DNA from: Steroidobacter gossypii
Lineage (GTDB): Bacteria > Pseudomonadota > Gammaproteobacteria > Steroidobacterales > Steroidobacteraceae
Assembly: GCF_016801985.1 (NCBI RefSeq)
Contig: NZ_JAEVLS010000004.1
Coordinates: 434,001-498,000 of the forward strand
Direction of reading: 5' to 3'
DNA length: 64,000 bases
How positions within the stretch are numbered: the stretch's first letter is position 1; the number at the start of each line of letters is the position of its first letter. Position numbers and translations under genes: made by a program. The notes beneath the pieces were generated by a model. It had not been told where the DNA came from. It worked only from the letters and a program-made list of their open reading frames with translations, and ran no database searches. Of the stretch, positions 4,028-22,446 are shown one piece after another.

Positions 4028-4045
4028 TTGCTCAGGGATGAGCAA
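4028..4045. terminator. Weak hairpin between convergent DinB-like and ABC genes
   Basis: TTGCTC (4028-4033) pairs with GAGCAA (4040-4045) over a 6-nt loop and overlaps the stop codon of the ABC gene. No T-run follows on either strand, so termination is only a possibility. Confidence 0.25.
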
Positions 4046-6176
4046 TCACGAGCAGCGTCGGCGCTCGGGAGAGAGCACAACGCAAGCAACGATCCAGAGT
4101 GTCTGGATCCAGCGCTGCAAAACTCTCATCGAGCACGACCAGCTCGGCGCGCTGTAACAACGCGCGAGCCAGAAACAGGCGGCTGCGCTCGCCATGGGAA
4201 AGTTGCCAGCCGGTTTCGCCGACGATTTGCATCAGCCCCGAAGGCATGCGGTCGAGCAACTCGCCCAGACCGAGCTCACGGCAGAGCTCGTCGGCCTCCT
4301 CCAGATCCGACTCCTCGGGTGGCCAACGCCGGCCCATGAGCAAGTTGAAGGCGAACGTTCCGCTGAGTACGTGGTTCTCATGGAACTGCGGCGCGGCGGT
4401 GCTCAGCCGCCGCCACGTGTCGCCCCAAGTGTGCCGGTCGAGGCCGTCGAGCAACAGCAAGCCCGATTCCGGTTGACGCAGGCCGACCAGCAGGGAGGCC
4501 AGCGTCGACTTGCCACCGCCGGACGGCCCCTCGAGCAGGATGCGATCCTTGCGATGAATGGTGAAGTGACAACCGTCGATGACCGGCGCCGACTGCGGTC
4601 GCTGACGGTAGACGAGATCGCGTGCGTGCACCAACACTCTGGCCGACTCTGCAGACGATGGGCTCGGCTCTGCAGCGGCCGGCAGTGTGCCGGCAGAGTC
4701 GTCGCTCTCACTTGCTGCCGCGAATAGAGGTGCAACTTCCTTCGCCGCCACCGCAGCTCTCAGCAGCGAGGACAGGCCGACCGCGACCGAGCTCAGCGCA
4801 CGATGCGCCAGCAACACACCACCGAGCGCAATGGCAAGCCCCGTCGTCTCCGCAGCGCCTGAAACAAACGCGGGCGCAAGCCCCAGCAATCCGACAACGA
4901 GCCAGCCACGCGGGACACCCGCGGCGAGGGGAACGTATGCGCCATCGAAATCCTTCGAGGAAGTCACGTAGCGGTCGAGTTCGTGATCTTCGTCTTCGTG
5001 TCTGTGTTCGGCCGCCTGTTGAACCATGCGCGTACGGTGGCCAACCATACGCTCGATGAGATCGTGAGTCAGGCCGAGTCGAGCCTGGCTCCACTTGCGC
5101 AGCCGGACGTAATAGCGCTTCGCGAGGACGGCCGTGATGAGCAACCAGCCCAACAGCAACACTACGTGCCACGCGCCGCCTGCTCCCATTGCCAGCACCC
5201 ATGCCGCCAGCCCGAGCTCGATGCTCGCGATCAGCACGGCGAAGCCGCCGCTGAGCGCCATCGACTCCAAAGCCTCTGATTCGATCACACGGCTGAGCCA
5301 CTGGCCCGCGCCGCGTCGTCGCGCTTCTTCCATGCTTATTTTCAAAGCGCCTGACAGCAGCCGTTGTTTCAACAGCACCGCAGCCGCAATCGACAAGGTT
5401 CCCTGCAGCCAGCCCCCGGCCAGTCGCAGCGGCACGGTACCCAGCAACAGCAACACCCAGGCGAGCAGCCAGCCGGCGTCGAGCTGGCCCGCCAGAGCGC
5501 CACGTCCGATGAGGGACCAGCCGGCAATCTCCATAGCGAACAACGCCCCGAAGATCGCCAGCATCGCGACCAGACGGTCTGGCAGCCGCTGGTAAGCGAG
5601 TTGCTTCCAGAAACTTGCCGTGGTCGGGATCCTCAGCAGCCAACAGCCAGGCACGCGCTGCCCCGCCATGCGCTCCTGAATCAGCAGGCGCTTGATCTTT
5701 ACTCTGCGCCGGGGCGCGATGTTTGTTTGCTCCAGCAGCGCGTCTACATCCGCGATCACCGGCCGCTCCTGCTCGGCGCACAGCGACGCTTTCACCTGCT
5801 CGAGCGGGAACTCGACGATGCGCAGCTCACGATCCACCAACACCGCCATGCGCGCGCGAGAACGAAGCAGCAGCAAGAGCGAAGGCTCGCCGGATTCTGG
5901 TCCGTCGATCTCTCGATAGCGCAGCAGCGCAGGCCCGGCGCCACGCAGCAGTTCTTCGACTTCCGCCCCGCTCGCTTCGACGGGCTCAACTTCGATGCCC
6001 TGGCTCGCGCCCACATGCAGCAGCCAGCGATCGAAATCTTCGTGATCGGGCGAGCCTTGGAATGCGGGCATGGACGCAGTGGAGTGCGACGGTTTCATGC
6101 CAGCAAGACGCGCCAGCGAGGCAACCGCCTCGGGCATGCGGCTCACGGGCCACGCCAGTGCGGCGAGCTCACTCAT
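4032..6176 (-). CDS. ABC exporter, fused permease/ATPase with non-catalytic N-terminal domain (peptide export)
   Basis: A 714-aa half-transporter. Residues 1 to about 170 form a soluble domain without the Cys-Gly-Pro motif of C39 peptidases, so it may be a degenerate C39-like or NHLP-type domain. A membrane region follows (about 205-500, with segments such as LLAWVLLLLGTVPLRLAGGWL). The ATPase has Walker A GPSGGGKST near 554, signature LSHGERSRL near 664, Walker B LVVLDES, and stops right after the H-loop (LLVIAHP). Its ATG overlaps the end of the upstream C39-ABC gene by 8 bp, implying translational coupling. It is the last gene of the peptide operon and probably forms a heterodimer with the C39-ABC protein; that pairing is inferred. 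Confidence 0.85.
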   Translation of the reverse strand: MSELAALAWPVSRMPEAVASLARLAGMKPSHSTASMPAFQGSPDHEDFDRWLLHVGASQGIEVEPVEASGAEVEELLRGAGPALLRYREIDGPESGEPSLLLLLRSRARMAVLVDRELRIVEFPLEQVKASLCAEQERPVIADVDALLEQTNIAPRRRVKIKRLLIQERMAGQRVPGCWLLRIPTTASFWKQLAYQRLPDRLVAMLAIFGALFAMEIAGWSLIGRGALAGQLDAGWLLAWVLLLLGTVPLRLAGGWLQGTLSIAAAVLLKQRLLSGALKISMEEARRRGAGQWLSRVIESEALESMALSGGFAVLIASIELGLAAWVLAMGAGGAWHVVLLLGWLLITAVLAKRYYVRLRKWSQARLGLTHDLIERMVGHRTRMVQQAAEHRHEDEDHELDRYVTSSKDFDGAYVPLAAGVPRGWLVVGLLGLAPAFVSGAAETTGLAIALGGVLLAHRALSSVAVGLSSLLRAAVAAKEVAPLFAAASESDDSAGTLPAAAEPSPSSAESARVLVHARDLVYRQRPQSAPVIDGCHFTIHRKDRILLEGPSGGGKSTLASLLVGLRQPESGLLLLDGLDRHTWGDTWRRLSTAAPQFHENHVLSGTFAFNLLMGRRWPPEESDLEEADELCRELGLGELLDRMPSGLMQIVGETGWQLSHGERSRLFLARALLQRAELVVLDESFAALDPDTLDRCLRCALSRAPTLLVIAHP

Positions 6177-8901
6177 GGCCAGCGCTGCTCCGTGGAGTCA
6201 GAAACATTCGGCTCGACTCCTGCAATCGGCCGCCATCCAGTCGAATGCGACGCCACAGCGCCGCGCTCCAGACTCCTTGACGGAGCGCTTCTTCAACGTC
6301 GAGCAGATTGCGATAACGCGAGCCTGCGGCGAGCGCCAGCTCCTCGGGCCGACCATCCTCCACGATGCGGCCATTCTCAACCACCAGCACACGGGGAAAT
6401 GCTCTGGTTTCGCCGACATCGTGAGTCACGCAGATCAACGTCGCGTCCTGCCAGAAGCGGCGAACCTCGGTGAGATGCCGATGCCGCTGTTCGCGATCGA
6501 GACCTCTGAACGGCTCATCCAGCAACGCCAGGCGCACATTCCGTTGCCACATCGCTCGCGCGAGGCGCAATCGCTGACCTTCGCCTCCGGAGACTGAAGC
6601 GCCACCTTCCGCCAACACGGTCTGCAAACCCTGCGGCTGCCCGACGAGCATTCGGACCAGATCGGCGCTTTCCAGGATGTGCGTCAGTGTGGAGTGTGGC
6701 CCGGCGCTCGAGCTGTAGCGCAGATTCTCCAGGAGCGAGCGATTCCAGAGTTGAACCGCTGGATCGACCCACGCAGTCTCCCCACGAAGTTGCGACAGCC
6801 GTGCTGTAGTGAGCGCCACGCCATCGATGAAAACGGAACCGGCGGCAGCCTGATGCCAGCCCAGTAGCAACCCCAGCAGACTCGACTTGCCGGCCCCAGA
6901 CGGCCCGACGATGGCCACATGCTCACCGGGACGAATGCTCAAACAAACGTTCTGCAAGATCACGTGGCCAGCGGCGACCACGTCCACATCTTTCATTTCG
7001 ATGGCGATGGCCGTGGAGCGCTGCACCGGATGCGGTCCCGGCTTTCTCACGACGCCCGCCTCTGGCTGCTCCGGCGCTTTGATAGGCTCGAGCAGACGCA
7101 GGGCGACATTACGTTGCGCGGGATATTGAGCCACCAACGTCGCCAGGCTCTCGGCCAGTGTGGGCAGCTTCACCACCCAATAAACAAGCAACAGCAAACT
7201 GCCTGTGATGCCCGCCGATTCTATGTGTCGGAGCAGTAGCCAACCGGCCAGTGAGATACAAACCAACGATTGCAGCGCCTTCACCAAAAGAGTCGGACGC
7301 AGGACGCTGCGCGCGGCGCGAGCCCACTCGGTCAGTAAGCCCTCGTGCTCGCGTCGCACCGATCGTTCGGCGGAGTGCGTGCGGATGGGAACGATGCCCA
7401 GCAAAGCGTCCAGATAAAAACCATGCAAAGCGCCGGCGTGGCTGCGAGCGCGCATGTCCCGCTCGCTCAACATCGGCTGGGCCGCAATCAAGATGCCCAC
7501 GGCAAGAATGGCGATGGCAGCCGCGAGCGGCAGACTTTGCACATCGATAACTGCGATGCCCACCAGAGTGAACATCAACTCCCACCCCACTCTCACCATT
7601 CGAACTGCGAGGTCCGGCAGCTGGCGCGAGAGATAGATACTGTGCGCGCGCTCGGCCACGTCTGAAATGGGCCGGCTCTGGAAATACCGATCGCTGAGCC
7701 GCGGCAGTTTTTCAAGCAGCAGCAGGCGCAGGCGGGATTCGAGCCGCCGCCCAAGACGCAACGACTCTTCCACGATCGGGAATTCGAATACCCATAGCAG
7801 CGTGGTGAAACATAGCAAGGCTGCGAACGCGACGGCGCGCTGACTGGCGACGCTCAGATCCTGCGCGACCTCGAACAGACCGCGAAACAGCAGTGCTTCC
7901 ATGATTAGCGCGCCGACAGCAAAGCCCAGTGCCGCGAGCAGCGCTGCAGGCGTGAGCACACCATCGGCTCGTATCATGCTCCACAGCTCGCGCATCGGGT
8001 GCACGGCGCGCTCGGTAAGCGCCGCGCGAAGTTCTGGTATCAGTTGCTCGGCTCCCGGAGTGGATGGCAATCGCCCGCGTATTCGCATTAACACGGCGCC
8101 ACGCAGCAGCAGCTCTTCGCCGCCGGAATCTGCCATCGGCAACACTGCCCAATACAGCAGTGGGATGGCTTTGCATGTTCCCGGCGCTTCCTCCGCGCTA
8201 CGCGCGACCAGCGTTTCGAGCAATTCGATTGCTTGCTCTCCGCGCCGGACGCCATCTCCAGCGGTCAGTGCGCCGAGCAACCGCGTCGCCGCGTCTACTG
8301 TCGCCATTGCGTACCAGTGATTCTTCTGCGTGGCGCGCGCGACGATATCGTTCGCTTTCGCTGGCGAGGCGCCGAGCGCTCGAAGCCGGCCGATCATGAT
8401 TTGGACGGTCTCGCCCGACACCGCCCATTCGTGCCAATCGGCGGCAGGCACACGCAGCCGATGGGGAAACAATTCACCGGTAAGGCGACGACAGGTCGTC
8501 CACCGCCGCCCGACCGCTGGGTCCATCACCTGCAACCACCGGCCATGCCGCCGCCACACGATCACGAAGTGGGTCATGCCATTGGGATGCTTGATCGTGA
8601 CCATCGCCGGCAACGCATTCGCCTCCGGCACCCACAGATAATCCCTGGGCAACATCACCTGCTCGGCATCCAGACCCAGCTGGCGCGCGACGCCCTCGAT
8701 CATGTCGATGGAGGTGCCGTCGATCGAGGTCTGACAGGCCTCGCGCAGCCGCCCATAGCTGGCCGGAATGTGAAATCCTTCCAGCAAACATTTGAGCGCC
8801 GCCGGCCCGCAATCCATGGCCGAGGTCTGGATCACTTCGGGCACCCACCAGCGGCGGCGGGGCTTGAGCAGACGTTCCTTGATGGCGGGCCAGAAACTCA
8901 C
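6169..8901 (-). CDS. C39 peptidase-containing ABC exporter (bacteriocin-type processing/secretion)
   Basis: A 910-aa protein. Residues about 20-160 are a C39 cysteine peptidase with all catalytic residues: Cys31 in MDCGPAALKC, His111 in MTHFVIVWR and Asp127 in MDPAVG. An unusual soluble segment of roughly 170 residues (about 160-330) separates it from the membrane domain. The ATPase shows Walker A VGPSGAGKSS near 669, signature VSGGEGQRLRLARA near 772 and LALLDEPFRGLD. C39 exporters cut leader peptides after a Gly-Gly-type site and export the product. The GTG start overlaps the TGA of the HlyD-like gene (GTGA), so they are co-translated. Likely substrates are the two micro-peptides encoded just upstream. 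Confidence 0.92.
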   Translation of the reverse strand: MSFWPAIKERLLKPRRRWWVPEVIQTSAMDCGPAALKCLLEGFHIPASYGRLREACQTSIDGTSIDMIEGVARQLGLDAEQVMLPRDYLWVPEANALPAMVTIKHPNGMTHFVIVWRRHGRWLQVMDPAVGRRWTTCRRLTGELFPHRLRVPAADWHEWAVSGETVQIMIGRLRALGASPAKANDIVARATQKNHWYAMATVDAATRLLGALTAGDGVRRGEQAIELLETLVARSAEEAPGTCKAIPLLYWAVLPMADSGGEELLLRGAVLMRIRGRLPSTPGAEQLIPELRAALTERAVHPMRELWSMIRADGVLTPAALLAALGFAVGALIMEALLFRGLFEVAQDLSVASQRAVAFAALLCFTTLLWVFEFPIVEESLRLGRRLESRLRLLLLEKLPRLSDRYFQSRPISDVAERAHSIYLSRQLPDLAVRMVRVGWELMFTLVGIAVIDVQSLPLAAAIAILAVGILIAAQPMLSERDMRARSHAGALHGFYLDALLGIVPIRTHSAERSVRREHEGLLTEWARAARSVLRPTLLVKALQSLVCISLAGWLLLRHIESAGITGSLLLLVYWVVKLPTLAESLATLVAQYPAQRNVALRLLEPIKAPEQPEAGVVRKPGPHPVQRSTAIAIEMKDVDVVAAGHVILQNVCLSIRPGEHVAIVGPSGAGKSSLLGLLLGWHQAAAGSVFIDGVALTTARLSQLRGETAWVDPAVQLWNRSLLENLRYSSSAGPHSTLTHILESADLVRMLVGQPQGLQTVLAEGGASVSGGEGQRLRLARAMWQRNVRLALLDEPFRGLDREQRHRHLTEVRRFWQDATLICVTHDVGETRAFPRVLVVENGRIVEDGRPEELALAAGSRYRNLLDVEEALRQGVWSAALWRRIRLDGGRLQESSRMFLTPRSSAGHE

Positions 8902-10082
8902 GATGTGGACTCGCGAGCCTGCCCCATTTGCGCCGGTCGCGACATTCGTTGGCCCGCCGCTCGCAAGGCCAGCACGAGCGGAGTCGTGCGCTCGACGGCC
9001 ACTTCCACTGAGCCCGGCAACCCGTGCTGTAACAATCGCGGATCCTGACCCGGCTCAGGCGTCAACTCGACCCGGATGCGACCGCCGCGAATCTCGCTGG
9101 CCATCCGCTCGACCTTGAGCGCCAGCGTGCCAAACTGCGCCCAAGGAAAACCATCGAGCCGCATGCGGGCAGCTTGCCCCGGCACAACCCGTCCCATGAC
9201 CTGCTCGGGAACGAACTCCGCGACCACTCGCAGATTTCCCGAGGGCACGACGCTGCCGAGCACGCCGCCCTCATCGACGAATGCGCCCACATCCAACTGT
9301 GGAGCTTCTCCGATCACACCATCCACGGGCGCACGAATGATGTGCTTCTCGATGTCCTGGCGCAGACGCGCGATGGCTGCCTTCGTCAGTTCGCTCGCCC
9401 CTTTCAATTCTGCGACTTGGCGTCGCAATGCTTCGAGCGAGGCGCTGCGCTCACTCGCCTTGCCGTAGGCGTCTGCCTCGAGGCGCTTGATCTCGAATGA
9501 CAACGCGTCGGCGGCTGAACGCGCCTTCACCGCTTCGGCACGTGCGCGCAACTGCTCGATCTCCGCGACGCGACCGGAAGCGCTGAGCTGCGAAAGTCGG
9601 CGAACATTCTCATCGGCGAAGTTTGCTGTTGCTAGCGCCTCCTGATAGCGCGCCCGCGCATGTTCGACTGCACTGGCGGTCACTCGCTGCGCTTGTTCCG
9701 CCGCCTTCTGCTCGTCGGCGAGCTGTTTCTCCAGCGCCTGCAATTGCGGTGGAATGGCCTCGAGCCGCGCTTCTTCCTCGGCGAGCCGAAGTCGCTCGCT
9801 GCTGGCGTCGAACTCGACCAGCACCTCGCCGGCCTTGACCTGCCGGCCAAGCCGCACCGACGTCGACTGAATCTTCGCTGGCAATAGCGCCGCGATCGGA
9901 TGCGCCGCCTGCGCCACTTCGAGCCGCGCCGACGTCGACAGCTCGTAGGTAGTCACACTCGCGAACGACAGCCAGCCCAACCACGCGAGCAGCAGCGCCG
10001 CCACCAGTCCCCAGATGATCAAGGCATAGCGCGAGCTGTCATTCGCCAGGGAACGGCAGGTGCGCATGAAAGAAGTAGCCAT
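8898..10082 (-). CDS. HlyD-family periplasmic adaptor (membrane fusion) protein
   Basis: About 394 aa from the ATG at 10082 (MATSFMRTC...). A single membrane anchor lies near residues 20-45 (YALIIWGLVAALLLAWLGWLS), then a lipoyl half, a long coiled coil rich in Ala/Glu/Arg (about 100-260), and the returning lipoyl and beta-barrel domains (HIIRAPVDGVIGEAPQLDVG). It should bridge the C39-ABC pump to an outer-membrane channel; no TolC gene lies in this operon. The open frame continues upstream to a TTG at 10196, but the conserved region starts at the chosen ATG. No clear ribosome site is visible for either. It follows the micro-peptide genes. Confidence 0.88.
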   Translation of the reverse strand: MATSFMRTCRSLANDSSRYALIIWGLVAALLLAWLGWLSFASVTTYELSTSARLEVAQAAHPIAALLPAKIQSTSVRLGRQVKAGEVLVEFDASSERLRLAEEEARLEAIPPQLQALEKQLADEQKAAEQAQRVTASAVEHARARYQEALATANFADENVRRLSQLSASGRVAEIEQLRARAEAVKARSAADALSFEIKRLEADAYGKASERSASLEALRRQVAELKGASELTKAAIARLRQDIEKHIIRAPVDGVIGEAPQLDVGAFVDEGGVLGSVVPSGNLRVVAEFVPEQVMGRVVPGQAARMRLDGFPWAQFGTLALKVERMASEIRGGRIRVELTPEPGQDPRLLQHGLPGSVEVAVERTTPLVLALRAAGQRMSRPAQMGQARESTS

Positions 10083-10233: not shown

Positions 10234-10305
10234 TTACGCTCCGCAGCGTCCGCCGCCGCTGCCCGGCGGGAGGATGCCTGCACGTACCTGAGTTTTGACC
10301 TTCAT
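10234..10305 (-). CDS. Micro-peptide 1 (23 aa), candidate RiPP or secreted peptide precursor
   Basis: An ORF of 23 codons. It begins MKVKTQVRAG, has a Pro/Gly middle (ILPPGS) and ends GGGRCGA. The start has a clear ribosome site (ACAGGAG, 8 nt before the ATG). It is a paralogue of the 27-aa peptide about 80 bp upstream: MKVKT, VRAG and GGGRCGA are identical while the middle differs in length and sequence, the pattern of a coding-level constraint at both ends. There is no aromatic residue and a single Cys near the C-terminus. Position between an unknown 618-aa protein and a C39-ABC/HlyD export system marks it as the likely cargo. Processing at the Gly-Gly before RCGA or after RAG is possible. 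I do not recognise a named family. Confidence 0.75.
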   Translation of the reverse strand: MKVKTQVRAGILPPGSGGGRCGA

Positions 10306-10350
10306 GGTCGTTCTCCTGTCATGGCGTTCCGTGCCCATCGCACGTGGATC

Positions 10351-10369
10351 GGCCAGCCCCATGCTGGCC
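10351..10369 (-). promoter_or_regulatory. Hairpin upstream of micro-peptide 1
   Basis: GGCCAGC and GCTGGCC make a perfect 7-bp stem with a 5-nt loop, 45 nt ahead of the 23-aa ORF. The same element, with one base pair exchanged in both arms, precedes the 27-aa ORF. It also lies 17 nt downstream of that upstream ORF, so it could act on either gene. Confidence 0.5.
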
Positions 10370-10386
10370 AGGTCAGTGGAGTGAGA

Positions 10387-10470
10387 TCAAGCGCCGCAGC
10401 GGCCGCCGCCCACGCCCGGGGAGATCGGCGCAACCAGCGCGCCGGCACGCACATGAGTTTTGACTTTCAT
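10387..10470 (-). CDS. Micro-peptide 2 (27 aa), candidate RiPP or secreted peptide precursor
   Basis: An ORF of 27 codons starting MKVKTHVRAG, with a middle ALVAPISPGV and the same C-terminal GGGRCGA as its 23-aa paralogue. The ribosome site ACAGGAG stands 9 nt before the ATG. It lies 91 nt after the stop of the 618-aa gene and is the first of the two peptide genes to be transcribed. As in its paralogue, charge is concentrated in the first ten residues, the only Cys is third from the end, and there is no Tyr, Trp or Phe. It is too short for default gene finders. The role as precursor is inferred from the neighbouring C39 exporter and the pattern of conservation. Confidence 0.75.
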   Translation of the reverse strand: MKVKTHVRAGALVAPISPGVGGGRCGA

Positions 10471-10561: not shown

Positions 10562-12418
10562 TCACGCGTGGATCCGTGGCGAAATATCGATCGCGTCGCC
10601 GGTGACGACGATGCGCAGCTGCAGTTGTTCCTCCAGGTCGTCCGTCAGATAAGGCAAGTGGCCACCCACTGTCGCAAGGTGCTCCGCCGTGTAGACCGCT
10701 TCGAGCAAGCGATAGTGGATGGCGAGGTCCGTTCCGGTGAGAGGCCGGGACGGAGGCTGCCGGCCCAGCAGCTGGTTGATGTTCTGCTGGATCTCGGCGC
10801 TGGCGCGGACGATCGCCTGTTCGCGTCGGAAGTAATCCATCAGCACCGCCGTCATGCGTGCGATGGCGGCATCGTCGGCGCCTCGGATCCCGTCGAAACG
10901 TCTCTTCAGTAAGGTGTGCAGCGAGGCGCCGGCTGCGGCATCGTTTCCTACCGCGATCGGGGCAATGCGCTCCTTGAGCGACTCGTCCACTTCCGTTGTA
11001 TGCAAAGCATTCGCAGATCGCGCATACATTTCGACATAGACCTGCTCGCGCTTCAGTCGTCGCTCCTCGGTGTTCTGACGCGTGAGCATGCGCAGGAACG
11101 TGAGACTGCGCTCCATGCGCTCCTGGAATGGCCGCGCGCGGTCGTCGGCCCATTCGGCCACGATGGGAACGAGTTGCTCGTAACTCCGAGTCATCGCCGG
11201 CCAACGGGAGAAAACGACGGAATACGCCTGCAGGCCGTGCAACACGTACTCGAAAACCTGGTCGAGGTCGTTGAGCGCTGCTTCCACCTCAGGCGCGAGC
11301 TCCACCGATGCGGCGTCCTCGATCTCCTGCCCGTCCATGATCACACGCAGGAACTCCTCGATCATCGCCCGCGGACCGGCGCAAACGCCGTGGTCCGAGA
11401 TGAAGATGTCATTACGCTCTGCGTAGGCATACAGCTCTGCGCTCGTCATCGGCGCGTGCAGAGGCAACGTCGGCTCGAGATCTTCGGAGAACAACATGTG
11501 ATGCATGACCATCCGCACGCCGTCGGTAACGCGGTACATCGACGAGAGCACTGGATGCAGCTGCCCGTTCTCGACCCGATCCTGAGCGCGCAGCATCAGA
11601 TAACCGGGTATCGACAGCACCAGCGCCGACAAACAATGCAGATCGCCTACGGTCCATTGCTGCCTGGCGCGCGGAAACTTCTGCAAATACACCTCACGTA
11701 CCCGCAGCAGCGCGACCATCATCTGTTTCCAATGCGCTCGCATGGACTTGAGCGCAGAAACATTCATCGGCCGCTCGTGTTGGTAGCGACTGCCGGCATG
11801 CGGACAGGCGCGCCATTCGGTGGGCACTTCTACCCGCAGCGCCTTCGGGAACACGTTGCCCTCACCGACCTGGCGACCTTCTGCATCCATAGCTACGTGC
11901 GGGATGCGATACAGCGGCAGCACCAGTTCCAGATAGCCGAGCTCCAGCGGCCGACCGGTCAGCTCCGGAATGAGCGCCTCGGCTTCCAGCCAGGTTCGAG
12001 GAACAGCGCATGGCGCAGGAGGCAGCGGCGAGGGTCTGGATGGCTCGCGCGATGCAGGCAGCTCCGGTTCGGCTTCGGCCGTCGCGCGCTGCAGGACGCC
12101 CTCATCGACGAGCTGTTCGAGCAACTCCCGGATGCGCGGCCATTCGTAATTCGGACCCCACGTCGTCGCTGTGCCAGCAATGAAGCGCGGCTGCTTCGCC
12201 AGGCCCTCGCCGAACTCGAACAGCTCCGGCTCGTCGAACGAGATTTCCTTATCCCCGTAGTAGAGCCGCAGCTCGGTGACGCCGCCCTCGCCCGTCACGT
12301 ACTGAGCGAAGACGCGCTTGTGCTTTGGAAAGATCAGCTCGTCATCGGCCCCGAGCCAGCCCGCTCCACGCTCCTGCCCCAGACTGTCCTGCACCGAACA
12401 GCTTTCGCGCGATTCCAT
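10562..12418 (-). CDS. Unrecognised 618-aa protein of the micro-peptide operon
   Basis: I do not recognise this family. The start at 12418 is chosen because AAAGGAG lies 9 nt before it; another ATG is 9 nt upstream. There is no signal peptide or membrane segment, so it is probably cytoplasmic. Residues about 35-105 could be a winged-helix-like unit ending WPRIRELLEQLVDEGVLQR. A Pro-rich linker follows, and the remaining 450 residues look almost wholly helical, with conserved-looking His clusters (DLHCLSALVLSIPGY, VRMVMHHMLF, FISDHGVC). It lies 46 bp after the di-heme gene and 91 bp before the first micro-peptide. A role in peptide modification or recognition is inference from context only. 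Confidence 0.7.
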   Translation of the reverse strand: MESRESCSVQDSLGQERGAGWLGADDELIFPKHKRVFAQYVTGEGGVTELRLYYGDKEISFDEPELFEFGEGLAKQPRFIAGTATTWGPNYEWPRIRELLEQLVDEGVLQRATAEAEPELPASREPSRPSPLPPAPCAVPRTWLEAEALIPELTGRPLELGYLELVLPLYRIPHVAMDAEGRQVGEGNVFPKALRVEVPTEWRACPHAGSRYQHERPMNVSALKSMRAHWKQMMVALLRVREVYLQKFPRARQQWTVGDLHCLSALVLSIPGYLMLRAQDRVENGQLHPVLSSMYRVTDGVRMVMHHMLFSEDLEPTLPLHAPMTSAELYAYAERNDIFISDHGVCAGPRAMIEEFLRVIMDGQEIEDAASVELAPEVEAALNDLDQVFEYVLHGLQAYSVVFSRWPAMTRSYEQLVPIVAEWADDRARPFQERMERSLTFLRMLTRQNTEERRLKREQVYVEMYARSANALHTTEVDESLKERIAPIAVGNDAAAGASLHTLLKRRFDGIRGADDAAIARMTAVLMDYFRREQAIVRASAEIQQNINQLLGRQPPSRPLTGTDLAIHYRLLEAVYTAEHLATVGGHLPYLTDDLEEQLQLRIVVTGDAIDISPRIHA

Positions 12419-12464: not shown

Positions 12465-14681
12465 CTATTGCGCCGGCGTACATTCTCCGATCGGGGTGAA
12501 GATGGCGTCGTTCGGATCCAGGTCGAGGAATGTCTGCAACGGCTGCCAGGAGCCGAACGCCCCGACGGCTTCGATCTGAATCCTGCCGTCGGTGTCGAAG
12601 CCATCTTCGGCCAGGCGCAGTTCCGGATGATCGAACGGCGCCATGCGATGTTTAACCCGCGCGTCGGTCAGTGACAGCATGAAGGCGACCAGTTGCTGTT
12701 CCTGCGCGGCGCTCAAGCCGAGCGGTACGATGCTCTTGTCCAGCTCACGGCCGTTCAAGCGACAGAAATTGCCGCCGCGGTTGTAGAACTGCACCACCTG
12801 GCGCAGCGTGGCCACGCCGCCATTGTGAAAGTAAGGTCCGGTCAGCTCGACATTGCGCAGGCCAGGCGTCTTGAAGGCCCCATCCACCGCGATGCGCTGA
12901 AAGGCCGGCAGAATGGGCTCGCTCGGCTCGCACACGCCATTGTTGTTGGCATCCTGGCAAACGTCGCTGCCGAGATCCTCATCGGTGGCCAGCAGCTGAT
13001 CGTTGCCGATGATGGGGAACGTCATCGGCAACAGCTCCAGACGCTCGAACAAAGCCTGGCGCGAATACGCGAGCGGATAGCCGTTCAGATCGTTGCCGCC
13101 GCGACCGAGATCGTCCGTGGCCGGCGTCACGCCGATGTTATAAAAGCCGACGTCATACAGCGCCACGCCCTGGCCCATGGCCATCGCTCGAATGACGCCC
13201 TTGCCGCTTTGCGCCTCCCGCACCGACGCCTTGGTCAACTCCGGGCCGGCATGACAATCGATGCACTTGCCTTCGTTGACGAACAGATTCAAGCCCGCCA
13301 GCTCCTGCTTGCCGAAGCCGTAATTGAAAAGGCCGGTCTCCATCCACAGATCGAACGGCGTCAGGTCGGACACCAAGGTCGATTCGTACAGTGCGACCGC
13401 GAGCCCGAAGAACAATCCAAAGTTCGCCTCCATCTGAGTGAACGAATCGACACTCGGCGTGGGTAGCGCGATCATGTCCGGCGAATTCCAGTAGCGCTCA
13501 TGGAACGCGCGCTTGATCAACGATTCATACGAAGTCTTCAGGCCATGCGCGGTGACGTTCGACAAGGGACCGAGCACCGAGTCGAGCCGATGGACCCTTT
13601 GCAAGCCGAGCGGCACGAGTCGTTTGCCCTCCGGTGAACGCCGTAACAGTTTCACGCCGATCTCGGCGAGCGAGCGTGCGTTGCCGTGCGCCGGGCTGCC
13701 GTAGGACATCTCCACGAAACTCACCGGCGCATCCATGGCCTGCGAAGCGAGACTCGCGTTATCGAGCGCGACGATCTCTTGCACCAGGCCCTGACCGGCG
13801 CGATTTACATACACCCTGGCTCGCAGATCCTGTGCGCCGAAAGCGCTCTTGCCGTTGAAGTGAGGATTGGCGCGACCGTCCCAGAAATTGGTGAAGTTGA
13901 ATACAGCGTTGATGACCGACGGCGCGTTTCGCGGCTCCACGCGCCGCACGTTGCGCCCGCCGACGTGCCAAGTGGGATCGGGAAGCAGCGTGCCGGCATC
14001 GAACACGGAGCCGGGCCGCACACCGTCGAAGAACGTGAACAGCGTGCCCATCGAAGAAATGATGTCGTTGCTGTTGTTATTGCCGGGAAGCACCCGGCCG
14101 TCGGGCGCGCGATAGTACTGCTCGATGGATTTGATGAGCGGAAAATCCTCACGCGTGATCTTTTCATTCGGTTGTCGCGTCTCGAAATTCAGATCGGCGT
14201 TGATGGGCGCCAGGTAATAGCCGATCACGTCGTCGATGCGATCGTCGACGACCGTGAGCCGATCGGGATTGAATTGATTCTTGGTCCGCACGTCGGCGCC
14301 GGCGTGGTAGTGACAGCTGGCGCAGGCCATCAGCCCGTCGCTGCCGAGCTGCATGTCCCAGAACAAGGCCTTGCCCAACTGCACGGCCACCTTGCGATTC
14401 TTGACGAACTCGTCGAGCTGTCGAGGCAGCGGCACCCCTTTGTCGTTACGCACCGCCCGACGCAGCGAATCCAGGCCCAGCGCCCGCGCCTGCTGTGGCG
14501 TTCGTATCGTCGTGATCGCGGTCGGCGATCCGCCGCCCGGGCCATTGTTTTGTGCCGGCGTGTTCGCGGCCCAGCACATCGCGGCGCAGCCGGCGCCGAT
14601 CAGTACGATGCGAGTGTGCCGCAGGATTCGAAAAAAAAGCGAGGAAGACGGCGTTGAATTCACGCCAGCCGAGCGATCCAT
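12465..14681 (-). CDS. Secreted di-heme MauG/RoxA-like cytochrome c peroxidase-family protein
   Basis: A 738-aa exported protein with an N-terminal membrane/signal segment (about residues 15-42). Two heme c sites are present: C120-A-S-C-H124 (GLMACASCHYHAG) and CIDCH near 470-475 (GKCIDCHAGPELTKAS). The later segment VELTGPYFHNGGVATLRQVVQFYNRGG is characteristic of the CcpA/MauG superfamily. It is much longer than bacterial cytochrome c peroxidases (about 330-380 aa) and nearer in size and layout to RoxA-type di-heme oxygenases. An Asp/Asn-rich stretch DANNNGVCEPSE resembles a calcium loop. It heads the operon of the 618-aa protein, micro-peptides and exporter. Chemistry could be peroxidase, oxygenase or protein-modifying oxidation. 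Confidence 0.85.
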   Translation of the reverse strand: MDRSAGVNSTPSSSLFFRILRHTRIVLIGAGCAAMCWAANTPAQNNGPGGGSPTAITTIRTPQQARALGLDSLRRAVRNDKGVPLPRQLDEFVKNRKVAVQLGKALFWDMQLGSDGLMACASCHYHAGADVRTKNQFNPDRLTVVDDRIDDVIGYYLAPINADLNFETRQPNEKITREDFPLIKSIEQYYRAPDGRVLPGNNNSNDIISSMGTLFTFFDGVRPGSVFDAGTLLPDPTWHVGGRNVRRVEPRNAPSVINAVFNFTNFWDGRANPHFNGKSAFGAQDLRARVYVNRAGQGLVQEIVALDNASLASQAMDAPVSFVEMSYGSPAHGNARSLAEIGVKLLRRSPEGKRLVPLGLQRVHRLDSVLGPLSNVTAHGLKTSYESLIKRAFHERYWNSPDMIALPTPSVDSFTQMEANFGLFFGLAVALYESTLVSDLTPFDLWMETGLFNYGFGKQELAGLNLFVNEGKCIDCHAGPELTKASVREAQSGKGVIRAMAMGQGVALYDVGFYNIGVTPATDDLGRGGNDLNGYPLAYSRQALFERLELLPMTFPIIGNDQLLATDEDLGSDVCQDANNNGVCEPSEPILPAFQRIAVDGAFKTPGLRNVELTGPYFHNGGVATLRQVVQFYNRGGNFCRLNGRELDKSIVPLGLSAAQEQQLVAFMLSLTDARVKHRMAPFDHPELRLAEDGFDTDGRIQIEAVGAFGSWQPLQTFLDLDPNDAIFTPIGECTPAQ

Positions 14682-15191: not shown

Positions 15192-15515
15192 CTAGAACTG
15201 CATGATCTCCGCCGCCACCACCTCCACCTTGGAGGCGCAGCCGAGGGCGCGAGAGGCGCCGGGCGCCAGGATGAACTCTTCCTGCATGTCCTTGGCGCCG
15301 GTGGCCGCCCAGCGAACCACGACCTTGATGCTCAGGTAGGTGTGTTGACTGGTCACTACCCAGGAGTGATTGAACTCATCGCACTGACGGTCCGAGACCG
15401 GCTTGACGAAATCGGTGGCCGCAGGCTCCTGAGCCGTGCTCAGCGCCGGCAGAATCATCCCGAAAGTCAGCACCGCGGACGACCACAGCCGCGTGCCCCC
15501 CTTGATCTTTTGCAT
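15192..15515 (-). CDS. Small secreted hypothetical protein (107 aa)
   Basis: A 107-aa protein with a signal peptide (about residues 1-28, ending LSTAQ). The mature part is about 80 residues with Cys near positions 44 and 92 that could form a disulfide (RQCDEFNHSW and ALGCASK), suggesting a small beta-rich periplasmic domain. I do not recognise the family. It is single, with 174 bp to the efflux operon on one side and the 510-bp gap on the other. A GC-rich inverted repeat lies just ahead of the gene (near 15528-15540). Confidence 0.6.
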   Translation of the reverse strand: MQKIKGGTRLWSSAVLTFGMILPALSTAQEPAATDFVKPVSDRQCDEFNHSWVVTSQHTYLSIKVVVRWAATGAKDMQEEFILAPGASRALGCASKVEVVAAEIMQF

Positions 15516-15689: not shown

Positions 15690-17135
15690 TCACTCGGTGG
15701 ATAACGTGGACGCACCATAATCCCAGCCGCCGCCGAGCGCACGAACGAGTGCGATGTCCAACGAAAGTCGGCGCGCCCGATCGGCGCTCAGGGCGCGCTG
15801 GCTCACCAGCAGGCGGTCTTCTGCGATCAGCACCGACTGCAGATCGGCAGCGCCCGCCGTGAAGCGCGAACGAGCCAGCGCCAGCGCTCGTTCGTTGGCG
15901 GTCACCGCCCTCTCCTCTTCGCTCAGCCGGGACGCGACCGCGCGTTGCTGAATCAGCGCATCCGAGACTTCCTGAAGGGCGCGACTCAAGGTCGCGTCAT
16001 AGCTCGCTACAGCTGCATCGTATTCGGCGCGAGCCACACGATAGCCGCCGGCGCGTCGTCCGCCGTCGAAGATGGGCAGGCTGATGGCGGGACCGATCGA
16101 GCCCGCGGTCGAGCCGGTGGCGAAGACGTTGTCGAGCCCGAGCGCCTGCTGCCCGAAGGCCGCGACCAGATTTACATTCGGCCGAAACCGGGCGACCGCG
16201 ACGTCGATGCGGCGAGAGGCCGCTTCGGCTCGCCAGCGGGCAGCGACCAGATCCGGCCGCCTGCCGATCAACTCCGCCCGCAGATCCCCCGGCAAACTCA
16301 CATTGCCCTGGGCGCGCGCGGTGGGCCGGGCGATTTCCAGGCCTCGATCAGGACCTGCACCGATGAGCGCGGCGATCCGGTTACGTGTAAGAGCGATGCG
16401 TTCGTCGGCGTCAATGAGCTGCGCTCGTGCGGTGGGCGGTCCCGCCTCGGCCTGGCGCAGATCGGCCTCCGAGTCGTAACCGTACTGGTGACGCCGTGCT
16501 ACCAGATGCAACGTCTGTTCTCGCACCATCAGCGTGCGCTCGAGAACGTCACGGTCGGCGTAAAGGGCGCTGAGCTGAGCGTAGGCATCCGCAATTGCGG
16601 AGGTCAGCAGCAGGCGCGTCGCGGCCAGGTCTGCTTCGACGGCGCGGTTTTCCCCAACCGCGGCGGCGAGCGCTGCACGGTTGCCGCCCCAGAAATCCAA
16701 CGCGAAACTGGCGTCATAACCGATCCTGCCGCTGTCGTTCCATCCGTGGAGCGCAGGCGGCGTCGGCAGACCCGTGTTGTAACTGGGCTTGGCGTAGGCA
16801 GCGCTCGCGCCCAGCGCGACGTTGGGTTGTAACGCCGCTCCGGCCACTTGCGCCAACCCTTCCGCTCGGAGCAGACGAGCTCGCGCCATGGCCATGGTCG
16901 GGGAGTCGCGCAGGCCCTCTTCGATCAGCCGTTCGAGCTGTTCGTCGCCGAACGCTTGCCACCATCGTTCGGCGGGCCACTCGCCCATCGAGTCCACGTT
17001 CAGACTCTGCTCCGTCACATAGGAGTCGACCGAGGGAATGCCGCGCTTATCTCCCAAATCGGGTATGAAAGCGCACGCAGTGAGGGTGAGGCCCAGCAGC
17101 GCGACGCTGCTGGCCTTAACTAACGGTGTCCTCAT
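15690..17135 (-). CDS. Outer-membrane efflux lipoprotein, OprM/NodT family
   Basis: About 481 aa from the ATG at 17135. Residues 1-20 are a lipoprotein signal with lipobox LTAC (MRTPLVKASSVALLGLTLTAC), followed by the TolC-like tandem repeats typical of the RND/EmrAB outer channel (SYVTEQSLNVDSMGEWPAERWWQAFGDEQL, then long helical hairpins). The longer frame to 17231 lacks the signal peptide. It overlaps the upstream adaptor gene by 20 bp and completes a three-gene MFS-type tripartite efflux operon. Substrate unknown. Confidence 0.92.
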   Translation of the reverse strand: MRTPLVKASSVALLGLTLTACAFIPDLGDKRGIPSVDSYVTEQSLNVDSMGEWPAERWWQAFGDEQLERLIEEGLRDSPTMAMARARLLRAEGLAQVAGAALQPNVALGASAAYAKPSYNTGLPTPPALHGWNDSGRIGYDASFALDFWGGNRAALAAAVGENRAVEADLAATRLLLTSAIADAYAQLSALYADRDVLERTLMVREQTLHLVARRHQYGYDSEADLRQAEAGPPTARAQLIDADERIALTRNRIAALIGAGPDRGLEIARPTARAQGNVSLPGDLRAELIGRRPDLVAARWRAEAASRRIDVAVARFRPNVNLVAAFGQQALGLDNVFATGSTAGSIGPAISLPIFDGGRRAGGYRVARAEYDAAVASYDATLSRALQEVSDALIQQRAVASRLSEEERAVTANERALALARSRFTAGAADLQSVLIAEDRLLVSQRALSADRARRLSLDIALVRALGGGWDYGASTLSTE

Positions 17136-18258
17136 CTGCGGCCTCCTCAGCCAGGTCCGACTTCGGCAGCTCGCATCCGAACGCGCCGGAGAACCATCCC
17201 AACACGCCGCGATGGGCGCGGCCATCAGCATGCGATCCGATGGCGATCATGGGCTGCGCCGACATCCCGCCCGCCAACCGTTCGAGCCCGGGCTGCGCCG
17301 GGTCGAGCAGAATGCGCACGGTGAAGCGTCGAACGATCTTGGTGAAATTGCCGGTGGCGTTGTCCGGCGGCAGCAGCGCGAACTCCGAGCCGCTGGCGCC
17401 GGAAACACTTTCCACGCTTCCGCAGTACGCGAGATCCCGGACCGCGTCGACCTCGATGCGCACACGATCGCCGGGCCGCACGCGGGAGATCTGCGTCTCG
17501 CGAAGATGCGCCTCGACCCATAGATCCTGCGTCGGAGCTACAGCCATGAGTCGCGCACTCGCGATCACAAACTCGCCAACTCGAACGTTGCGGCCTGCGA
17601 TGAGCCCTTCGCGCGGCGCTCGGATGGTGGTCGCTTCCAGATCGTTGCGGGCTCGGAAGAGCTTGGCCTCGGCGCCGTGCATTGCGGCCCAAACCGGCTC
17701 TCTTTGCGCGGCAATGACATCGAGCTGATTCCGAGCGAACTTCGCCTGGGCAGTGGCTTGGTCCACCGCGGCCCGGGCCCGAACGTGTTCCGCCGCTGCC
17801 GCGTCGTAAATCGAACGGCTCACTCCACCTTCTTCGACGAGCGCAGACGCTCGGACAAACTCTTCTTCCGCACGACGCAACTGAGCGGATGCGCTCGCGA
17901 CGGCCGCATCGGCAACGCGAATCTGCGATTGCTGGAGCCGCTCCTGCGCATCGATCTGGATCAAAGCTGCGCGCTGCTGAGCGACGCTCGCCTCCGCATC
18001 GCGCCGTGCCGCTTCGAAATCTCGCGGGTCGATGCGGGCGAGCACCTGGCCCGGCTCGACGCGCTGATTGTTCTCGGTCAGCACCTCGCTGACGTAGCCG
18101 GGCACTTTGGTTGAAACAAACGTGAGGTCGCCCTTGATATAGGCGTTGTCGGTTTGTTCGAACGGCGTCACGCCGTGCCACAGCGCGTAACCGAAGAAGA
18201 TCACGAGGGCGGCGCCGATCACCACCCCGCCCGCGGTCGTGAGACGTTTGACGGTCAT
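17116..18258 (-). CDS. emrA-like: EmrA-like HlyD-family efflux adaptor
   Basis: About 380 aa from the ATG at 18258, which overlaps the MFS gene stop as ATGA. A single N-terminal transmembrane helix (residues about 10-30) is followed by the EmrA-typical FEQTDNAYIKGDLTFVSTKVPGYV, a coiled-coil hairpin, and the returning lipoyl segment TIRAPREGLIAGRNVRVGEFV. It connects the inner-membrane DHA2 transporter to the outer channel. The very C-terminus (about the last 45 residues, acidic, ending DEDTVS) extends past the usual family end and overlaps the start of the next gene. Confidence 0.9.
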   Translation of the reverse strand: MTVKRLTTAGGVVIGAALVIFFGYALWHGVTPFEQTDNAYIKGDLTFVSTKVPGYVSEVLTENNQRVEPGQVLARIDPRDFEAARRDAEASVAQQRAALIQIDAQERLQQSQIRVADAAVASASAQLRRAEEEFVRASALVEEGGVSRSIYDAAAAEHVRARAAVDQATAQAKFARNQLDVIAAQREPVWAAMHGAEAKLFRARNDLEATTIRAPREGLIAGRNVRVGEFVIASARLMAVAPTQDLWVEAHLRETQISRVRPGDRVRIEVDAVRDLAYCGSVESVSGASGSEFALLPPDNATGNFTKIVRRFTVRILLDPAQPGLERLAGGMSAQPMIAIGSHADGRAHRGVLGWFSGAFGCELPKSDLAEEAADEDTVS

Positions 18259-19820
18259 GCCAGACTCCTCTCGCGAGGCAGCGCCGGAAGCGCCCAGACA
18301 AGGATCGCCGCTAACGCGAGTGCCACGGCGGTAATGAAGAAAGCGTCTTGATAGGCCAGCGTGTAGGCCTGTCTGGCCGCGCCCTGAGCGAGCCCCGCGA
18401 ATGCTCCGCGCTGAACACCTGAGATGTCCGGTATCCATGAGCCGAGCATCCGTCCCATGGCAGCTAGTCTTTCAACGGCAATGGGCTCGAGGCTGGTGAC
18501 CGACTCGCTCAAGCTCGACCAATGAAACTTCTGTCGTTCAACCACCGCGTGGGTCGTGAGCGCGAGCCCACCGACGAGACCGAACGTTCGGGCGACGTTG
18601 AATGCGATCCCGCGCGAGGGGCCATCCTGCAAAGTCGCACCGAAGACTGCGTAACGCATGGTCGCGACGGAAAACAACGCCTGGCCCGCCCCCGCCAATG
18701 CAAGGGGCAGAATGAATTCATTGCCCGCCCATTCCGATGTGATCTGCACACAGATGGCCGCGGCGATGGCAATCGCCGCCAATCCGAGCGACAGCGGAAT
18801 TCGCGGATCCGACTTCGCGGTCAACCAATAGGCCACCGGCGTGGTGAGCAACGTCCCCAACGCCATCACCAGCATGAGGTCGCCGAGCTGCTCGGTGCGA
18901 AAGCCCTGCAGTCGCGCGAGATATTGCGGCCCGATGAACACGGCCAGCAGCGTGCCGAAGCGAAATATCACCTGCAGTACCAGCACGCCTGAGAACGTCG
19001 GGCTGCTGAAGATCGAAAACGCCAGCAGCGGACGTTGTGCCAGCCGCATGTTATGAATCGCGAAGCCGATGCTCAGCAGGCCGCAGATAAGACTGGCGGT
19101 GATCCACCACTTCTCGAACCAGAAGCGGCGCTCGCCTTCGGAAAGAAAGATCACGATCAGGCCGAGCCCGATCGAGAGCAGCACGAACCCCGGCCAGTCG
19201 AAGCTCTTGAGCAACGAGAGATTGCCTCGCTCGCCGCGCAGTACGAGGAACGCCAGCCCGGTGTAGATCGCACCGAGAATGGCTTGTGAGATGAATAAGG
19301 CGCGCCAGCCGCCGATCGCGACCAAAGTCTCCGCCGTCCAGGCCGAGAGGCCCAAGCTGACGGTCGTCGCGAACGCGAACAACGTAAGTCCTTCGAATTG
19401 CCCTTTACCTGGCGGCAGGCTCGTGAGCGCGATCAACATCATCAGCAGCGGCAGCGCCCCGCCGAAGAATCCTTGCGCAAAACGGCCGACGAAGATCCAC
19501 GGCAGGCTCACGCCCACGCCAATCGCGAAGCTTGTGAGTACCAAGCCGAGCCCGAAGATCAGCATGGCCCGACGGCGGCCCAGGGCACCCGCCACGGCCA
19601 CGGCCGCCGGCAATCCCACCAACACACCGACGTTATAAAGAGTCACGATCCAGCTGGCTTCGTCCGCGCTGGCCGACAGGCCGCCGCTCACGTCCGGCAT
19701 GGAAAGGATCACTGCGAGCGGCATGGTCGCGCCGACCACCGCACCGAAGGTGCTGACCGCGATCGCACCCCAAGGAGGGCTCGGGGGGCGGTTTTGGCGA
19801 GTGTCGGCCAGAGACATCAC
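18255..19820 (-). CDS. emrB-like: EmrB/QacA-type MFS multidrug transporter (DHA2)
   Basis: A 521-aa protein with about 14 predicted membrane segments. The DHA2 features are present: LPLAVILSMPDVSGGLSASADEASWIVTLYNVG in the first helices and a proton-coupling-type loop VAGALGRRRAMLIFGLGL. It is the first gene of the efflux operon, with a 4-bp overlap into the adaptor gene. A 95-bp gap separates it from the TonB receptor upstream; no local repressor gene is adjacent. Expected function is proton-driven export of toxic compounds through the EmrA-OprM-like partners. Confidence 0.92.
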   Translation of the reverse strand: MMSLADTRQNRPPSPPWGAIAVSTFGAVVGATMPLAVILSMPDVSGGLSASADEASWIVTLYNVGVLVGLPAAVAVAGALGRRRAMLIFGLGLVLTSFAIGVGVSLPWIFVGRFAQGFFGGALPLLMMLIALTSLPPGKGQFEGLTLFAFATTVSLGLSAWTAETLVAIGGWRALFISQAILGAIYTGLAFLVLRGERGNLSLLKSFDWPGFVLLSIGLGLIVIFLSEGERRFWFEKWWITASLICGLLSIGFAIHNMRLAQRPLLAFSIFSSPTFSGVLVLQVIFRFGTLLAVFIGPQYLARLQGFRTEQLGDLMLVMALGTLLTTPVAYWLTAKSDPRIPLSLGLAAIAIAAAICVQITSEWAGNEFILPLALAGAGQALFSVATMRYAVFGATLQDGPSRGIAFNVARTFGLVGGLALTTHAVVERQKFHWSSLSESVTSLEPIAVERLAAMGRMLGSWIPDISGVQRGAFAGLAQGAARQAYTLAYQDAFFITAVALALAAILVWALPALPRERSLA

Positions 19821-19915
19821 GGCAGCGAACCTCGATGGAGGATGCTGCCATGGTGTGTGACGGGTGCGCCGGTTTCTTGATCAGCCCGGCGCTTTGTTGA
19901 ACGATCGCACCGATC

Positions 19916-22321: not shown

Positions 22322-22446
22322 AAACTTCCCCAGTTGTTTCTTGTGCGTGCGCCGGCAGCGCAACGCCCGAACATCTTAGGGGGCATGCCATAAAGGATCA
22401 GTCGCGACGGGGTTATATCGGAGTCACCGCCACGGCCGATGCGGTT

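Follow-up and report, generated by a model that had tools for sequence, protein, structure and literature searches.

Methanobactin precursors (MbnA) are 23 to 35 aa long with Lys/Arg-rich leaders, and some of their predicted cores begin RCAST; the available part of PMC3621798, which gives these features, also describes a core motif of C(G|A|S)(S|T) and the presence of MbnH in some methanobactin operons. A biarylitide-type precursor is described as the smallest reported in the accessible text of PMC12951456, so small size alone would set no record here. For PCAT exporters, the accessible section of PMC10885120 places hydrophobic recognition residues of the leader at -4, -7 and -12, and the C39 cut motifs given there are GG, GA or GS, not AG. 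The available text of PMC12710340 requires the fold order beta3-alpha3 of an RRE (RiPP recognition element), describes RREs fused to carbamoyltransferases and RRE-like folds fused to JmjC family PF08007, and notes uncharacterised domains as the fusion partners of many newly found RREs.

Here we analyzed a 64,000-nucleotide stretch of the Steroidobacter gossypii genome (the window), in which two tiny minus-strand ORFs, overlooked by gene finders, are likely precursors of a secreted, probably modified peptide. Translation recovered both ORFs, of 23 and 27 aa, where an earlier note on this DNA had placed them, together with the ACAGGAG ribosome site that it had claimed 5' of each ATG. Peptide 1 (MKVKTQVRAGILPPGSGGGRCGA, positions 10234-10305) would divide into the leader MKVKTQVRAG (10276-10305) and the core ILPPGSGGGRCGA (10237-10275), and peptide 2 (MKVKTHVRAGALVAPISPGVGGGRCGA, 10387-10470) into the leader MKVKTHVRAG (10441-10470) and the core ALVAPISPGVGGGRCGA (10390-10440); we infer this border after residue 10 from conservation within the family and from variants with Gly-Gly. 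Pfam and NCBIfam contain no family for the two peptides or for six others tested, and full-text literature searches with leader and core strings and with RiPP, MauG, RRE and leader terms, in a corpus that excludes most subscription journals and bioRxiv, returned no paper recognised as dealing with the family.

The gene order on the minus strand is di-heme protein, 618-aa protein, peptide 2, peptide 1, HlyD, C39-ABC and second ABC protein, and all the neighbours but the second ABC protein are those that the earlier note had named. The MauG/MbnH-like di-heme protein (738 aa, 12465-14681) has CxxCH at residues 120 and 473 and an N-terminal export signal by eye. The 618-aa protein (U618, 10562-12418), our proposed core-modifying enzyme, has an AAAGGAG site before its ATG; in an AlphaFold2 model, residues 20-112 (12083-12361) form a predicted winged-helix domain of RRE type and residues 140-618 (10562-12001) the main, possibly catalytic, domain (pLDDT 91.9, pTM 0.92). 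On the other side of the peptides lie an HlyD-type adaptor (8898-10082, ATG start picked by eye), a C39 peptidase-ABC exporter (6169-8901) that contains the expected QTSAMDC...H...D residues and, we propose, would cleave off the leader and export the core, and its partner, a second ABC permease/ATPase (4032-6176). An outer-membrane efflux protein of OEP/TolC type (15690-17231, minus strand) is a possible outer channel for the peptide system, an assignment that we infer because the peptides of loci L115, L116, L121 and L123 have OEP genes nearby as well. An HlyD/MFS efflux pair and a TonB-dependent receptor adjoin the cluster (17116-22363, minus strand). Upstream of the di-heme gene is an orphan 107-aa ORF (15192-15515, minus strand) with an export signal by eye, no Pfam family and no relative among the fetched loci. 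Promoter and terminator scans of the DNA stayed at chance level.

A degenerate DNA motif for MK[VI]KTx[VI][KR]AG has two matches in the window and none in 100 dinucleotide-preserving shuffles, and the only matches to a slightly looser motif in the 7.1 Mb genome are the two window peptide sites. The two peptide units are a tandem duplication in which the upstream DNA aligns as well; aligned as DNA, the ORFs differ at 3/24, 3/24 and 10/24 of codon positions 1, 2 and 3, and the flanks at 24/90. In 84,980 species genomes, the degenerate motif gave 132 matches in 96 stretches, where about 7 would be expected by chance on a rough estimate from 36 bits. Nearly all of these matches (124/132) are ORFs of 130 aa or less, and a ribosome-site tetramer precedes 114 of the 124 (92%), against one of the eight longer or open frames and 15% (2930/19483) of all ATGs in the same loci. 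A few of the 124 short ORFs are clear strays, for instance in four Akkermansiaceae loci where the frame resembles a ribosomal protein. The hosts include Acidobacteria, Chloroflexi, Myxococcota, Planctomycetota, Nitrospira and Pseudomonadota. The peptides are often tandem, with seven strict matches in 8 kb in L015, and in four precursors a K[VI]KSxVKAG-like unit recurs ahead of further cores, as a recognition and cleavage unit would. Beyond the shared MK[VI]KTxV[KR]AG the cores diverge (NHNQ repeats, VNWG, GGNWGG, GCGSGGCM, SRCxG and others), and residues 1-10, MK[VI]KTxVR[AG]G, look like a leader when the sequences are set side by side.

For a comparison selected at the DNA level, the peptide gene of L186 with 80 nt on each side was searched against 15 loci of a third Myxococcus paralogue (below). 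The 19 hits over the ORF, query included, contain no gaps and all translate to MKIK[IL]HVRGGPKAR, with 11, 0 and 33 differences in 266 at codon positions 1, 2 and 3 (0.041, 0 and 0.124). The flanks differ at 343/2625 positions (0.131); the third position is thus about as variable as the flanks, and the second is unchanged. Judged by this pattern, the peptide ORFs are evolving as coding sequence. Short ORFs of this size do arise randomly, and the two window copies could owe their likeness to a tandem duplication with similar upstream DNA, so that the ORFs might be chance or non-coding and the conserved DNA something else; such an account is made very improbable by residues conserved from one phylum to another, by ribosome sites clearly more frequent than at random ATGs, and by the way the differences fall on the codon positions.

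Homologues of U618 were found by all-against-all BLAST and a profile in 17 rows, representing 16 loci and the window, and U618 is present in all 18 genomes from which 19 peptide loci came, although 16 of these loci were already known with U618 and L091 belongs to the same genome as one of them, which leaves L060 and L073 as new tests. In L060 and L091 the Arg-Cys peptide is on a different contig from the single U618 of the genome, so U618 may act in trans. When 22 stretches were fetched around U618 and the window was added, a strict-motif peptide lay within 1.5 kb of U618 in 18 of 23, downstream in 16 and within 130 nt in 15. In all 43 U618 stretches, a leader-motif peptide by the relaxed pattern is present in 40, C39-ABC in 35, HlyD in 35, the second ABC in 34 and MauG in 11; for this count the leader pattern was widened after the first Myxococcus paralogues had been seen, and the ribosome-site list was wider than for the 114 of 124 above. 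The stretches are not independent, since 26 of the 43 are from Myxococcus and 15 of those belong to the third paralogue; the 17 outside Myxococcus (the window and L108-L123) have a peptide in 16, C39-ABC in 12 and MauG in 3. The earlier note had asked whether such an ORF stands beside the same flanking genes elsewhere, and the 40 of 43 answer this in the affirmative and support its proposal of candidate precursors of a peptide natural product. Of the three stretches without a peptide, L195 has one just past its end (L196) and L111 ends at a contig edge, and L181, with no leader peptide in 17.1 kb, is a real exception.

A search of the genus Myxococcus found U618 in 19 of 27 genomes, at 34 places, of which 26 were used (six as L124-L129 and 20 newly fetched) and eight were not. 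These 20 stretches were picked by U618 and not by the peptide; 18 contain a peptide and one more has it just beyond. Short exact peptide patterns had found no U618 relatives, a limit of sensitivity, because searches with peptide patterns and a profile then found many. In partly overlapping samples of 369 genomes (class) and 398 genomes (phylum) there was no other full U618, and the gene is therefore rare and scattered. The phylum sample yielded a single remote partial match (E 1.5e-24). An order sample (246 genomes) gave one remote relative (E 7.8e-16) and four weak partial matches, and a plasmid collection gave one. A protein group near some peptides (L116:4671-5864, L121:17054-18226, L091:1992-3209 and L037) contains a methyltransferase, by Pfam, in the one member tested (L116), and is a possible tailoring enzyme.

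An R-x(0,1)-C core is present in 23 of 25 pattern peptides linked to U618 and in none of 89 unlinked peptides with a ribosome site, and at residue 8 of the leader 24 of the 25 have Arg, against 73 of the 89 with Lys, so that core and leader both track U618. The 82 distinct peptides of the 43 stretches, many of them Myxococcus near-copies, all have a core Arg, 77 have Cys and 75 have R-x(0,1)-C. The earlier note had seen a conserved C-terminus rather than only a leader, a view that does not extend beyond the window: family-wide it is the ten-residue leader that is conserved, and the C-terminal block shrinks to Arg-(x)-Cys. In L122, STRCGG occurs three times. The Myxococcus paralogues in L124 and L125 stand with 13 and 10 peptides such as MQIKTKVRGGPRGCGG..., with a leader ending in Gly-Gly. 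We noted 6 to 13 paralogous peptides per stretch in L124, L125, L192 and L193, which all start with PRxC but differ strongly in their tails, several closing with Q(I/L)P or a related sequence; to the eye, the tail seems to be diversifying. The third Myxococcus paralogue, in L128 and L129, goes with MKIKLHVRGGPKAR(A) and MKIKIHVRGGPKAR, peptides whose cores are four or five residues long. Peptides of 14-15 aa reading MKIK[IL]HVRGGPKAR(A/S) occur with their own U618 paralogue and exporter in L178, L182-L191, L194, L196, L128 and L129. Because this paralogue accompanies PKAR cores without Cys, Cys cannot be the sole target, and the four PKAR-type peptides without Cys make Arg the more constant candidate.

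The leader also heads other cores in the absence of U618 in Acidobacteria, Chloroflexi, Myxococcota, Planctomycetota and Pseudomonadota. MK[VI]KTxVKAG leaders without U618 in the stretch were seen in L010, L015, L049, L061, L064, L068, L070, L072, L074, L075, L087, L090, L102, L103 and others; these peptides are 14-116 aa long, their cores include NHNQ repeats, VNWG, AWGT, GGNWGG and GCGSGGCM, several stand beside the same exporter, and each may be a separate uncharted peptide system. Near U618-free peptides we also noted, by eye, a Ser/Thr-kinase-like group (18 of the 96 pattern loci, for example L078 and L010) and an ECF sigma factor-like group (seven loci), many of these loci being in Acidobacteria.

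The alignment of U618 comprises 19 full sequences (AlphaFold2 model, mean pLDDT 87.9), in which the invariant residues include R182, E186, C205, N219, R241 and C346 (GVCAGP). When three remote relatives are added, E164, R182, E186, R211, N219, R241, C346 and Y391 (window numbering) are invariant, and N188 and C205 nearly so. Pfam and NCBIfam gave no meaningful match for the window protein; over the 19 members, Pfam gave single-member matches only, at E 0.03 or worse, and the best of the stray NCBIfam matches, NF005367 (anthranilate synthase component II), was to 2 of 19 members at E 1.4e-4 and not to the window protein. Foldseek returned nothing at E <=0.001 for the full and main-domain models, which is no proof of a new fold, and the best structural match of the main domain (479 aa) had a Z of 4.9. 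For the proposed modifying enzyme, the searches here thus found no characterised relative. P450, heme-oxygenase-like and TDO-like identities were considered for U618. For the main domain as a possible heme-dependent aromatic oxygenase (TDO/IDO/PrnB), four IDO/TDO entries with Z 3.1-3.4 among unrelated rows are insufficient, and hhalign against six TDO sequences gave a probability of 0.2%. Twelve of the 19 members have Cys-Pro near the N-terminus, which we take to be a possible heme-regulatory motif; the window copy reads CSV. Main-domain relatives, stand-alone or fused, with no leader peptide noted, are at L132:8268-9359, L008:263-2203 and L009:11842-13284; the L009 protein is beside an NRPS-like gene (by eye), the L008 protein is fused to Acetyltransf_8, and the L132 protein is beside a weakly SBP56-like protein. 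These remote relatives leave the reaction unfixed, and the superfamily may extend beyond this pathway.

The N-terminal domain of U618 is predicted to be RRE-like. Its model has the beta3-alpha3 order (strands 37-42, 48-54 and 57-61, helices 64-75, 81-86 and 93-105), with extra short strands before it (27-29) and within it (78-80). Comparison by VIA-align with structures bearing an RRE gave Z 5.1-7.2, namely 7.2 for ThcOx, 6.9 for McbBCD, 6.4 for TbiB1, 6.4 for TigE and 5.2 for TruD, which we take to be RRE-bearing, and 6.4 for PbtF, whose entry is called an RRE in its title; Z below 8 can reflect a common arrangement. Other winged helices match equally well or better (MINA53 with Z 10, NO66 with up to 8.1 and GdmN with 7.7), so the RRE call rests on fold and neighbourhood.

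C39-ABC/HlyD sets also export unmodified peptides, and the products might be of that bacteriocin or pheromone type, trimmed by C39, with U618 as a chaperone, immunity or regulatory partner; the lack of a recognisable enzyme family for U618 and the Myxococcus arrays with varied tails would suit such peptides. We consider this unlikely, as R-x(0,1)-C follows U618 in the manner of a substrate motif and U618 itself has the RRE-like domain, many invariant polar residues and an invariant Cys.

The Q, C, H and D of the C39 peptidase are present in the window exporter and in 13 of 13 exporters inspected (H and D read by eye). The 82 peptides depart from the PCAT rule of hydrophobic residues at -4, -7 and -12: position -4 is Val/Ile and -7 is Lys in all 82 (the search pattern allowed V/I/L/M and K/R), and -12 is absent. 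The residues at the proposed cut site are GG in 55 and AG in 27, the window peptides among the latter. No C39-ABC was found in eight of the 43 U618 stretches, two of which (L117 and L118) are contigs shorter than 7 kb. Another of the eight, L116, has both a subtilase and a methyltransferase close to its peptides. The best NCBIfam match of the window C39 protein is TIGR03796, and its score (192 bits) and that of HlyD (33.7) lie below the NHLM/NHLP cut-offs of 853.3 and 156.2.

The di-heme protein scores 65.7 against Pfam CCP_MauG, for which the threshold is 25.6, and 105 bits against MbnH (TIGR04039), well short of the cut-off of 362.85. Its homologues in 11 U618 stretches have two CxxCH every time, and in a U618 tree, from which 11 near-copies were left out, the MauG-linked genes occupy two separate parts, and the well-supported branches require a minimum of two changes. 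The earlier note had held that precursors this short match no recognised family; in the available text of PMC3621798 the MbnA precursors are equally short, and with their Lys/Arg-rich leaders, RCAST cores and the MbnH of some operons they raise the possibility that the peptide binds metal and acts like methanobactin. The di-heme protein of 11 of the 43 stretches would fit, as would a TonB receptor that is present in the window (19916-22363) and next to the peptide in L119. We nonetheless judge a methanobactin-like peptide to be quite improbable: Pfam matched none of the scanned window genes (894-22363) to MbnB (DUF692), the core motif of methanobactins in the available part of PMC3621798 is absent from the window cores, which end RCGA, the remaining 32 stretches have no di-heme gene, and most cores have one Cys and those of the PKAR type none.

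We think it probable that the locus encodes a RiPP pathway in which U618 modifies the core, the C39 exporter cleaves and exports, and the MauG-like protein oxidises in some members. As far as comparison of sequences reaches, there is a leader family, selection on coding, a link between Arg-Cys cores and U618, and a frequent link to C39-ABC, HlyD and the second ABC protein; an encoded precursor with a conserved leader and a variable core stands next to a dedicated partner gene, as is required of a RiPP. In such a pathway, the RRE-like domain predicted at the N-terminus of U618 would hold the leader MKVKTxVRAG while the main domain, by a putative chemistry, modified the core at Arg or Arg-(x)-Cys, a target that we propose because every peptide in the U618 stretches has a core Arg and nearly all have Cys. 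The C39 domain would cut after Ala-Gly, or after Gly-Gly in the majority of Myxococcus peptides. Products of 13 and 17 residues would then leave through HlyD, both ABC proteins and an outer-membrane channel, and the exported MauG-like di-heme protein, where present, might further oxidise the product outside the cytoplasm. The product probably serves in competition, in signalling or to bind metal; the first two are the best fit to the tandem copies and their varied tails, of which one 20-kb Myxococcus stretch has 13.

We incline, by a modest degree, to the stronger proposal that this is a new RiPP class, in which an RRE-guided enzyme whose fold was not recognised here acts on Arg-(x)-Cys, or on the Arg of PKAR, after a ten-residue leader of the double-glycine type. 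Because the same leader heads other cores without U618, a single export code may be shared by many uncharted families of peptides missed by annotation pipelines. If so, an uncharacterised peptide-modifying enzyme would be added, the substrate rule of Arg-(x)-Cys after MKxKTxVRxG would make the chemistry directly testable, and a simple search string would become available for precursors of 14-60 aa dropped by length filters; the rule that C39 exporters require hydrophobic contacts at -7 and -12 of the leader would be challenged. The presence of U618 in so many of the Myxococcus genomes searched means that culturable hosts are at hand.

Among known systems, double-glycine/PCAT export (ComA, LahT and PCAT1) shares with this locus the C39 residues, Gly-Gly before the core in most peptides and the hydrophobic -4; it differs in that the leader here has 10 residues with Lys at -7, no -12 and, in the window and the other peptides of the 27, Ala-Gly. 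NHLM/NHLP dual-ABC export (TIGR03796, TIGR03797 and TIGR03794) has the same set of C39-ABC, second ABC and HlyD, although the scores here are far below cut-off and the leader is not of the long NHLP or Nif11 type. Methanobactin operons are alike in precursor length, in the Arg-Cys of some cores, in an MbnH-like di-heme protein and in a nearby TonB receptor; they are unlike in core motif, in the MbnB not found here and, in the accessible text of PMC3621798, in an exporter of the MATE type. Biarylitides and myxarylin also have very small precursors, and a myxobacterial member, but are P450-based. RiPPs with RRE-fused enzymes (the RRE-Finder families, as presented in the available sections of PMC12710340) likewise have a beta3-alpha3 domain fused to a putative modifier beside short precursors, whereas the main domain of U618 falls in no family found here and the leader has only 10 residues. 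As a RiPP the system is of a known kind; its U618 enzyme and its leader are a new variation on it, and it could count as a new class once the modification is known.
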